A DNA stretch of 60,707 bases from a virus, in the IMG/VR virus record IMGVR_UViG_3300033153_003461, positions 1 through 60,707 of that record; one strand, 5' to 3'. Each line of letters begins with the position of its first letter. Position 1 is the stretch's first letter. Below, piece by piece: positions 29,995 through 31,458 of this stretch. The translations under genes and the position numbers were made by a program. The notes beneath the pieces were generated by a model that was not told where the DNA came from, made no database searches, and saw only the letters and a list, made by a program, of their open reading frames with translations.

Positions 29995-30343
29995 GCTCTA
30001 GTTGTATGAACAAATTAATATGCTTATCAAAGTCTAAAACTATTACAGGGTTTACCTTCACCTTACTATCTTCTTTGATGAATATACCCACTTTCTTCAG
30101 CTTGCTCACTATATTATTGATCGTAGCTGTTGTTGTGTTATACATCTGACAAAACTCTGTTCTAGCATTAGCATACGTGATTGTACCTTTTATAGCTGTA
30201 TAAGCTACCAATTGTATCTCTCGCTCTGTAAGCTTTAAGTTGTTAAGTGCAGATAGCAATGAATAGTACTTCTGTGCAAGCTTGTACTTATCACTGTGCT
30301 GCATTGCTAGTTTTTGAACTACCTTATTATTCTGTGCTTCCAT
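29915..30343 (-). CDS. Winged-helix-like protein, first gene of the leftward operon
   Basis: 142 residues. A helical, HTH-type region (LKLTEREIQLVAYTA; MYNTTTATINNIVSKLKKVG) and a wing-like strand (VKVNPVIVLDFDKH) are followed by a strongly acidic tail (about residues 115-142). It is the first gene after the divergent promoter, so it may regulate late or structural transcription. DNA binding is inferred from the HTH pattern. Confidence 0.6.
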   Translation of the reverse strand: MEAQNNKVVQKLAMQHSDKYKLAQKYYSLLSALNNLKLTEREIQLVAYTAIKGTITYANARTEFCQMYNTTTATINNIVSKLKKVGIFIKEDSKVKVNPVIVLDFDKHINLFIQLEHEEDRQDSNDTERTYSEEDGSGSSSE

Positions 30344-30372
30344 TATTTAGTTATATTGGCTTTTACTATATG

Positions 30373-30405
30373 CAAATATATAAAAAAAATATTTGACTTA
30401 TCAAA
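30373..30405 (-). promoter_or_regulatory. Leftward Bacteroidota-type promoter of the structural operon
   Basis: Minus strand: TTTG (complement of 30402-30405), a 21-base spacer, then TATATTTG (complement of 30373-30380), matching the TTTG/TAnnTTTG consensus. Transcription would begin about 20 bases before ATG 30343. Confidence 0.7.
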
Positions 30406-30407
30406 CT

Positions 30408-30415
30408 TATCTTTG
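30408..30415 (+). promoter_or_regulatory. Rightward -7 element
   Basis: TATCTTTG matches TAnnTTTG on the plus strand, facing the rightward operon. No good TTTG lies 19-21 bases upstream (the nearest, 30392-30395, is 12 bases away), so the promoter is weaker or needs an activator. Confidence 0.45.
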
Positions 30416-30483
30416 TAGAAAAGCTATATTATGTATAAACATTCATCGATTCACTGGTCCACAGGAGCATCGATAAGAGGGAT

Positions 30484-30500
30484 GCTTAGAATCACTAAGC
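30484..30500 (+). other. Leader hairpin (6-bp stem)
   Basis: GCTTAG (30484-30489) pairs perfectly with CTAAGC (30495-30500) around a 5-base loop, directly before the CCCA repeats. Confidence 0.45.
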
Positions 30501-30641
30501 CCACCCACCCACCAAAGGTATAACATTATATCCCAAAGTTCCAAATTTTTAAATGCCCTTTTTCTAAAACACCCTCCCCCCATCGTGTGTGTGCGATAGG
30601 AGACCCCTTCCCATTGAAACCCCACTAAAAAAAAGCGTGGT

Positions 30642-30655
30642 GGGGGTAGTCCCCC
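30642..30655 (+). other. GGGGG-TAGT-CCCCC hairpin in the leader
   Basis: A compact 5-bp GC stem followed by TTT, 35 bases before ATG 30691. It could be an attenuator or a structure that controls translation of the first rightward gene. Confidence 0.45.
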
Positions 30656-30690
30656 TTTGACAAAACACGTAACACTAAATACATAATACA

Positions 30691-31092
30691 ATGAGTAGTA
30701 CATTATTAAACTGGAACACCTTTGTTCCAACAGAAAGAGAAGAAATCGGAATGGTTGCAGAACTGTGTGGCCCAAACGGAACTTTAAACCTTGTTCCAAG
30801 CAACTTTGCTAACCCTGATAAGCGTGTTGTGGTTGTGCTTAAACGTGAGGACGGTACATCAACAGCTATCACTTGTTCATCACGAGTTAGTGAGGGTGTT
30901 AGAGCCAAGGACATTACTATTAGCAATCTGTTTGGCTTTACTGTTTACAAACAAATCAATAGCACAACAGGCGAAGAATACGCTATGATAGGAATGCCTT
31001 CAGGCAACTCAACTCTCATCAGCTTTAAGAACGAGGGTGTTGTTGACTATCAACCAGAACTTGTCAACACTGATGACTTAGTAGCATTCTAA
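30691..31092 (+). CDS. First rightward gene, unknown 133-aa protein
   Basis: Beta-rich soluble protein (KRVVVVLKREDGTSTAI, YAMIGMPSGNSTLI) with an acidic C-terminus. It has a long structured leader and a hairpin (31110-31137) directly after it, so it may be a separately controlled, abundant early product. Its codons are more GC-rich than those of most neighbours by eye. Not recognised. Confidence 0.6.
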   Translation: MSSTLLNWNTFVPTEREEIGMVAELCGPNGTLNLVPSNFANPDKRVVVVLKREDGTSTAITCSSRVSEGVRAKDITISNLFGFTVYKQINSTTGEEYAMIGMPSGNSTLISFKNEGVVDYQPELVNTDDLVAF

Positions 31093-31109
31093 TAACTAAC
31101 CAATAAGAG

Positions 31110-31137
31110 CTTGGAGTGGGAGCAATCTCACTCTAAG
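31110..31137 (+). terminator. Hairpin after the first rightward gene
   Basis: CTTGGAGTG pairs with CACTCTAAG (9 bp, one G-T pair). No strong T run follows, so it may be a processing or weak termination site. Confidence 0.45.
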
Positions 31138-31150
31138 TTACTTATATATA

Positions 31151-31184
31151 GGGTGGGAAAGTTAGGGTTGGGCCTTATATAAGG
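31151..31184 (+). other. G-quadruplex motif followed by a 12-bp palindrome
   Basis: GGG-T-GGG-AAAGTTA-GGG-TT-GGG (31151-31172) meets the canonical four-tract G-quadruplex pattern. CCTTATATAAGG (31173-31184) is a perfect palindrome next to it. It lies in a 228-base gap (31093-31320) with no gene, in an AT-rich genome where such G tracts are rare. Confidence 0.55.
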
Positions 31185-31320
31185 AGAATAACAACAAACA
31201 AGGGTAAAGTTGTACATGTTTTACGTGTGTGTGAACACAGTAGTGTACTCACCACCCACTTTAAGCCACTTTTTACCACCTTAGAATATATCACACCTAT
31301 AATATACATATAGCATTAAC

Positions 31321-31458
31321 ATGACAAAAGAAGACATACTATACAGACAAGGTAGATCAGAACAACAGTATGCATCTGCTATGATATGTACAACTATCTC
31401 CTATAGAGGTTTGATAGTTTCCTTTATACTAATACTAATAGATACAATAAGATTATGA
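31321..31458 (+). CDS. Small protein with C-terminal membrane segment, 45 aa
   Basis: Starts MTKEDILYRQGRSEQQYAS and ends with a hydrophobic helix (GLIVSFILILIDTI). It overlaps the next gene as ATGA. It is likely a small early membrane peptide; function unknown. Confidence 0.5.
   Translation: MTKEDILYRQGRSEQQYASAMICTTISYRGLIVSFILILIDTIRL

Follow-up and report, generated by a model that had tools for sequence, protein, structure and literature searches.

The window analysed here, a virus record of 60,707 bases (IMG/VR IMGVR_UViG_3300033153_003461, positions 1-60,707), carries a G-quadruplex (G4) element at 31151-31172 (+) which, as judged by comparison with its relatives, probably forms the right half of a conserved control region at a divergent gene junction. 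The motif looks like a selected nucleic-acid structure, a G4 on the strand with the rightward-transcript sequence, and in many relatives with long spacers a small hairpin is predicted in the central loop of this G4. We tentatively interpret the element as a G4/R-loop switch coupled to transcription, and the junction as the likely origin, a reading which we prefer while holding it with less than even confidence.

The terminase, portal and major capsid proteins of the window match PHROG head families, and in tblastn searches its TerL finds its best match among annotated phages in Leptolyngbya phage Lbo-JY46 (40.6%), with Cellulophaga phi17:2/phi4:1 at about 31% and Crassvirales cr4_1 at 26%. Because of this proximity of TerL to crAss-like phages and the assignment of the head proteins, the window is, on protein similarity, classed as a crAss-like phage, and its TerL relatives together with the left promoter described below suggest a host among the Bacteroidota. 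The structural genes of the window run leftward, and those encoding DNA polymerase, a DnaB-like helicase, RecA and ribonucleotide reductase run rightward; the two sets diverge between 30343 and 30691, and the skew sign flips about there. The original prediction had placed the G4 at the start of the rightward arm, in agreement with this divergent junction. A gene for an HU/IHF-like bacterial DNA-binding protein (Pfam PF00216; 29641-29994, -) lies beside the junction.

Four GGG tracts separated by loops of 1, 7 and 2 bases make up the element (GGGTGGGAAAGTTAGGGTTGGG, that is GGGTGGG-AAAGTTA-GGGTTGGG), exactly as the original prediction had described it. It has the make-up of a canonical G4 (four runs of at least three G, loops of 1-7) and is the only one on both strands of the 60,707 bases, whether loops of 1-7 or of up to 12 are admitted. 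By chance, a mean of 0.02 canonical G4 is expected per first-order Markov copy of the window, and 6 of 300 such copies had one. The minimum-energy RNA fold of the window element, a result of the energy model only, includes the G4. With its 7-nt spacer, AAAGTTA, the window copy represents the short-spacer form without a central hairpin, and it consequently falls outside the definition of a quadruplex-duplex hybrid, in which a hairpin occupies a loop. The TA stretch TATATATA (31143-31150, +) adjoins the first G tract; in 46 distinct sequences the positions before the first G are A/T, mostly alternating TA, in two registers, and we suggest that this stretch acts as a melting element or as a promoter -10-like element.

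The surroundings of the G4 are not as empty as had been thought when the motif was described as having no gene nearby. In fact, a 133-aa ORF (30691-31092, +) ends 58 nt before the G4, and between the two lies a terminator-like hairpin (31108-31139, +) with the GC-containing stem and T-rich tail of an intrinsic terminator; two hairpins of this kind were found in 30300-31400, compared with a mean of 0.6 in shuffles. Directly after the G4 follows the 12-bp palindrome CCTTATATAAGG (31173-31184), to which the original prediction had also drawn attention. The palindrome is present, but at chance level and specific to a lineage: the window holds 13 perfect 12-bp palindromes where 21.9 +/- 4.1 are expected, and in the relative L004, whose neighbouring protein shares 83% identity with that of the window, it is lost while all four G tracts stay, for which reasons it was rejected as a functional site. 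Pairing of the palindrome with the TA stretch, with the G4 enclosed between them, is possible mainly for close relatives of the window, and only a handful of sequences near the window form a strong flanking stem of this kind (n=47, mean z -0.42 +/- 0.20).

The 133-aa product of the first rightward gene has an acidic/hydrophobic C-terminal tip and is encoded with a codon use like that of the major capsid gene. No PHROG or Pfam family was found for it, and the best match of a PDB sequence search had an E value of 0.42. Its predicted model (pLDDT 82.6) gave weak structure matches, OB-folds among them and none at E <= 0.001 in PDB; one viral structure match is an uncharacterised protein of Virus NIOZ-UU157. 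This model weakly suggests that the protein may bind ssDNA. Proteins matching that of the window account for 34 of 54 first-gene products (E <= 10, its own included), and several seemingly unrelated small protein families occupy the position (e.g. MKNYVINNGAF..., MTLAEAKSKIV...), many first-gene products ending in an acidic-hydrophobic tip like DDLVAF. The first rightward gene appears to be swapped but positionally fixed and fast-changing, and the G4 element stays even where unrelated ORFs have taken the place of this gene, as they have in part of the relatives.

The original prediction, which was to fall if the motif were absent in relatives and no change in skew or depth occurred at the site, had called for a study of conservation; most testable relatives were found to keep the G4, so that this condition for refutation does not apply. 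Among 81 sequences (80 of 479 terL relatives, and the window), 17 are too short or have no anchor and 64 are testable; in 45 of these 64 a canonical G4 matching in location and strand was found, with TAT upstream and longer spacers allowed, in 11 a near form with a short tract, and in six neither form. By eye the canonical count is 47 of 64, since L050 and L072 also carry a canonical G4, with a weaker TA stretch, and were scored as none by the script. When similar sequences were collapsed (n=50), the script assigned 35 to the canonical form, 7 to the near form and 8 to none. The six testable sequences without the G4 are L040, L061, L077, L094, L100 and L102, of which L094 retains a single GGGTGGG block, while in L077 an additional leftward ORF close to the contig end disturbs the region; the G4 is therefore not indispensable. 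Three IMG/VR contigs encoding close relatives of the 133-aa protein likewise keep the G4, the middle loop being one base longer in two of them.

Searches with other patterns extended these counts. When a scan admitted any loop letters and loops of up to 12, 29 of the 80 terL loci gave a plus-strand G4 and four a minus-strand G4, the latter located at the left block described below. In 14 long relatives the strict pattern occurred exactly once in nine and was absent from five, of which L037, L044, L056 and L104 have a variant form and L102 none. A broad-pattern search returned at least 120 loci: 67 match window proteins, one more has the left element only, and the other 52, with neither, mostly look like chance hits; L189, L265, L269 and L273 among them are perhaps clade fragments. 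In the stretches around terL of Leptolyngbya phage Lbo-JY46, Cellulophaga phi17:2, csAssE-Sib and cr4_1, neither the left nor the right element was found. To the right of the element, CCTATATATATAGG-like palindromes occur in part of the clade (L084, L086, L087, L099, L102), and in some of these same sequences the element is also followed by AAACTTTTTACGAGGGAGAAAAAAACTTTTT-like stretches, a motif absent from the window.

Across the clade the core of the element consists of an A/T stretch, mostly alternating TA, followed by GGGTGGG, a spacer of 6-26 nt and a second block, GGGTGGG or GGGTTGGG, i.e. GGGT(T)GGG. Clade membership was assigned by tblastn of nine window proteins to 214 of 292 sequences (291 loci and the window), and the clade sequences yielded 96 distinct elements, 29 with spacers of 6-11 nt and 67 with spacers of at least 12 nt. 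No stem of four Watson-Crick pairs was found in the 29 shorter spacers, the window copy included. Of the 67 spacers of 12-26 nt, 34 contain a Watson-Crick stem of 4 bp or more close to a fixed position, its start being the last G of tract 2 or no more than two bases away, compared with a mean of 6.9 in 1000 shuffles, none of which reached the observed mean stem. With the register fixed, such that the 5' arm runs from the last G of tract 2 and the 3' arm ends 2-5 nt before the second block, all four Watson-Crick pairs are present in 25 of 67, against 0.9 in shuffles (at most 5). The 34 stems comprise 27 different 5' arms. When the tail measures 3 or 4 nt, a G-C pair between the third G of tract 2 and a C closes the stem in 45 of the 67 long spacers and in 38 of the 39 elements that have at least three of the four pairs, and pairs 2-4 are mostly A-T, T-A, G-C or C-G in turn. 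The elements share descent, so these stems are not independent events, and composition-preserving shuffles fall far below the observed values. An earlier test on 44 elements had been weak (mean stem 2.88 vs 2.58 for the 24 with spacers of at least 12 nt; 2.6% of shuffles as high), with no signal once G-T pairs were allowed, and the strong signal came with the larger set of 96 distinct elements and the position constraint.

Stems that change in sequence and are still paired support selection for a folded plus strand. Allowing G-T pairs added nine stems (5.7 expected) and allowing A-C pairs added none (0.9 expected), an excess of G-T which leans weakly towards a folded plus strand, be it RNA or single-stranded DNA. 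Quadruplex-duplex hybrids, in which a Watson-Crick hairpin sits inside a quadruplex loop, are known mainly as designed or single genomic sequences. The long-spacer forms of the relatives (at least 12 nt) share this architecture, holding a Watson-Crick hairpin in the loop; in contrast to the known hybrids, the phage hairpin covaries across a clade and takes the third G of tract 2, and it is missing from the window copy. Since one guanine of tract 2 is taken up by the closing pair, 11 guanines are left free for a three-layer quadruplex, and the hairpin forms could possibly contain a vacancy, adopt a two-layer quadruplex or switch between two folds. Among the matches listed in searches of the literature on G-quadruplexes in crAss-like phages, phage genomes and origins or R-loops, a scope outside which most subscription journals lie, there was no such element, nor was there one among the matches listed for quadruplex-duplex hairpin loops conserved in phage.

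The left counterpart of the G4 is made up of a -7 box, TACCTTTG (30513-30520, -), which matches the Bacteroidota sequence TAnnTTTG, a -33 TTTG (30542-30545, -) at a spacing of 21 nt, and the G-rich run GGTGGGTGGGTGGG (30500-30513, -), which shares one base with the -7 box. In the Bacteroidota, the -33 consensus is TTTG. The arrangement TTTG-N21-TACCTTTG, adjoining GGTGGGTGGGTGGG on the minus strand, corresponds to a Bacteroidota sigma-A promoter (TAnnTTTG with TTTG about 20 nt upstream). In Flavobacterium psychrophilum (PMC9723704), TAnnTTTG at -12 to -5 is the box of the primary sigma factor, and the left element resembles such Flavobacterium/Bacteroidota promoters in both its -7 box and the TTTG 21 nt upstream. 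From the position of the -7 box the leftward start is expected inside the G run; accordingly, the left half of the control region is predicted to be a host-type promoter with its first transcribed bases in GGTGGGTGGGTGGG, on the minus strand. In contrast to usual Bacteroidota promoters, this expected start falls in a G4-capable run, which much of the clade keeps.

The spacer between the -7 and -33 boxes is exactly 21 nt in 33 of 41 distinct sequences, CCCACCCAC belongs to the left element in 50 of 62 sequences, and in many relatives TACCTTTG adjoins GGYGGGTGGGTGGG on the minus strand. In several relatives the G run is cut to GGCTGGGTGGG or less, and therefore it is not always G4-capable. When up to one mismatch was allowed, exactly one copy of the left motif was found in 11 of the 14 long relatives and none in three. 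The exact motif is present in 59 viral stretches, 36 of which also contain the right element (29 strict, 7 relaxed), nearly always at a distance of 570-735 bp, the exceptions being L121 (1015 bp) and L114 (2163 bp). The remaining 23 stretches either hold too little sequence or have room for the element but show none. Just before the first leftward gene, at 30373-30405 (-), TATATTTG and a TTTG placed 21 nt upstream of it form another promoter-like pair directed leftward. Two further AT motifs are conserved: GCTATATTATG at 30423-30433, to the left of the G-rich promoter, whose 9-mer GCTATATTA recurs in 50 of 62 sequences, and TATAGCATT at 31309-31317, just before the second rightward gene, in 40 of 62.

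The stretch that separates the leftward promoter from the first rightward gene holds a conserved block (CGTGTGTGTG ... GAGACCCCT ... ACCCCAC ... GGGGTAGTCCCCC; 30572-30655). In an alignment of 31 distinct sequences this block of about 85 nt is strongly conserved, even where the first gene is unrelated (e.g. L084), and it could be a phage promoter or an origin core. Its CCCC/GGGG parts were considered as a covarying RNA and this was discarded, the consensus fold energy over the 31 distinct sequences being about -0.8; it is the sequence that is conserved instead. Likewise, neither TATATATAGG nor GTGTGTGTG was retained as a repeated early promoter, as no repeated intergenic use was seen in the window apart from the two copies of GTGTGTGTG at the junction.

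The cumulative GC-skew minimum lies 13-231 bp to the right of the left element in three long relatives (113-114 kb), one of which, G007, is without the G4, and both G-rich runs are on outward-transcript strands near this minimum. The two gene arms are unequal and GC skew tracks gene direction; therefore, skew cannot separate an origin from transcription, and the GC-skew analysis proposed with the original prediction places the minimum close to the left element in a manner confounded with gene direction. In the one skew test that could have told the two apart, third-position skew in the first rightward gene is negative and would have pointed to an origin at the G4; it was rejected as evidence of an origin, being explained by the codon use of highly expressed genes. 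The suggestion that the site is a replication origin or a transcription control site thus keeps a conserved G4 at the junction in its favor, but the palindrome is not a meaningful part of it and the skew is tied to gene direction. The six sequences without the G4 also count against an origin.

Two known systems resemble the phage element. At CSB 2 of human mitochondria, transcription is ended by a G4 that RNA and the non-template strand form together, and this hybrid may supply primers (PMC5027508); the phage G tract would likewise lie on the non-template strand of a control region where transcription and, putatively, replication meet. The strand of the right element agrees with CSB 2, while a right promoter is suspected from the TA stretch only and the left one is well supported by sequence. 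Unlike CSB 2, the phage has two outward elements instead of one, its blocks are interrupted (GGGTGGG) and often come with a hairpin loop, and termination, R-loop and priming are here putative. In the pilE G4 of Neisseria gonorrhoeae (GGGTGGGTTGGGTGGG), which needs an associated small-RNA promoter and forms on transcription of that small RNA (PMC10094033), the G blocks are nearly the same as those of the phage. Nevertheless, the pilE G4 serves pilin recombination and is without a loop hairpin, and the two have no demonstrated common descent.

Based on these analogues and on the outward G runs near the skew minimum, we favor the G4/R-loop switch, albeit tentatively. Conservation, strand, hairpin covariation and the sequence of the left promoter are observed, and from them we infer folding in vivo, an R-loop, polymerase arrest and priming. 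Rightward transcription would start at the TA stretch, or run past the terminator, with the AT-rich flanks opening; the RNA would remain annealed to the C-rich strand, freeing the G-rich one to fold into the quadruplex by itself or together with RNA, which would arrest the polymerase and leave an R-loop able to prime and open the rightward leading strand. The left promoter would act likewise in the leftward direction, and the junction would serve as a transcription hub and likely replication start. We regard it as unlikely that the junction is a transcription-primed bidirectional phage origin, a counterpart of CSB 2 in which both outward primers have G4 switches, the right one being the covarying quadruplex-hairpin and the left one a host promoter whose start lies within a G4 run.

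A role confined to transcription, if somewhat doubtful, is a serious rival. The TA stretch would then serve either as a phage-specific promoter core or as the end of a composite terminator, with the G4-hairpin acting as a boundary that parts an abundantly expressed first gene from the remaining rightward operon and taking no part in replication. In agreement with this, the codon use of the first gene is that of a highly expressed gene, and all 46 distinct sequences, as against 11% of shuffles, have a terminator-like hairpin of varying sequence no more than 90 nt before the G4, at 5-21 nt from the element in 39 of them. Over the full range, however, this distance is loose (5-55 nt), yet the TA stretch adjoins the G4, and the host-type -33 TTTG was found 20-22 nt before the right TA stretch in 0 of 46 distinct elements; a host-type promoter on the right is therefore not supported. 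Moreover, none of the 14 long relatives searched has more than one occurrence of the strict pattern, and a phage would be expected to need many terminators and promoters.

It is rather improbable, though also a reading to be taken seriously, that the element acts as RNA, in a rightward transcript with a 5'- or 3'-terminal quadruplex and hairpin that would protect it or bind a phage protein, for instance the neighboring, possibly ssDNA-binding one; a precedent is the gene II mRNA of filamentous phages. The structure does lie on the transcript strand, the G-T wobble excess leans weakly to the plus strand, though it is small, and the minimum-energy RNA fold contains the G4 in 22 of 45 canonical elements, the window included, but not in the other 23, in a model that may not admit the longest spacers; the family of the neighboring protein, however, is swapped while the element is kept. 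Still less credible is the reading that a phage protein with a replicative, packaging or regulatory role binds two GGGTGGG direct repeats and that the quadruplex never forms. First and third loops are single-T or TT in 26 of 29 matches of the scan that admitted any loop letters (the corresponding 94 of 96 is partly by construction, the pattern having admitted only T or C there), as repeats of a binding site might be, but the repeats stand 6-26 nt apart and long spacers keep pairing and not sequence, features that a double-strand binding site does not explain. A chance G-rich run without function, to which the absence from six of 64 testable sequences could be referred, is hardly conceivable in view of the conservation of the element, its position and strand, and the compensatory changes in its hairpin.

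Most quadruplex predictions start from a single sequence and are disputed; a phage clade that keeps one quadruplex motif at one place, with compensatory changes in a loop hairpin, provides evolutionary evidence for selection on the structure itself. The natural variants, with and without the hairpin, with a shortened tract, and the six without the G4, constitute a ready-made test series. If the element marks an origin, it would offer an entry point to the start of replication in crAss-like phages, tied to transcription by R-loops.
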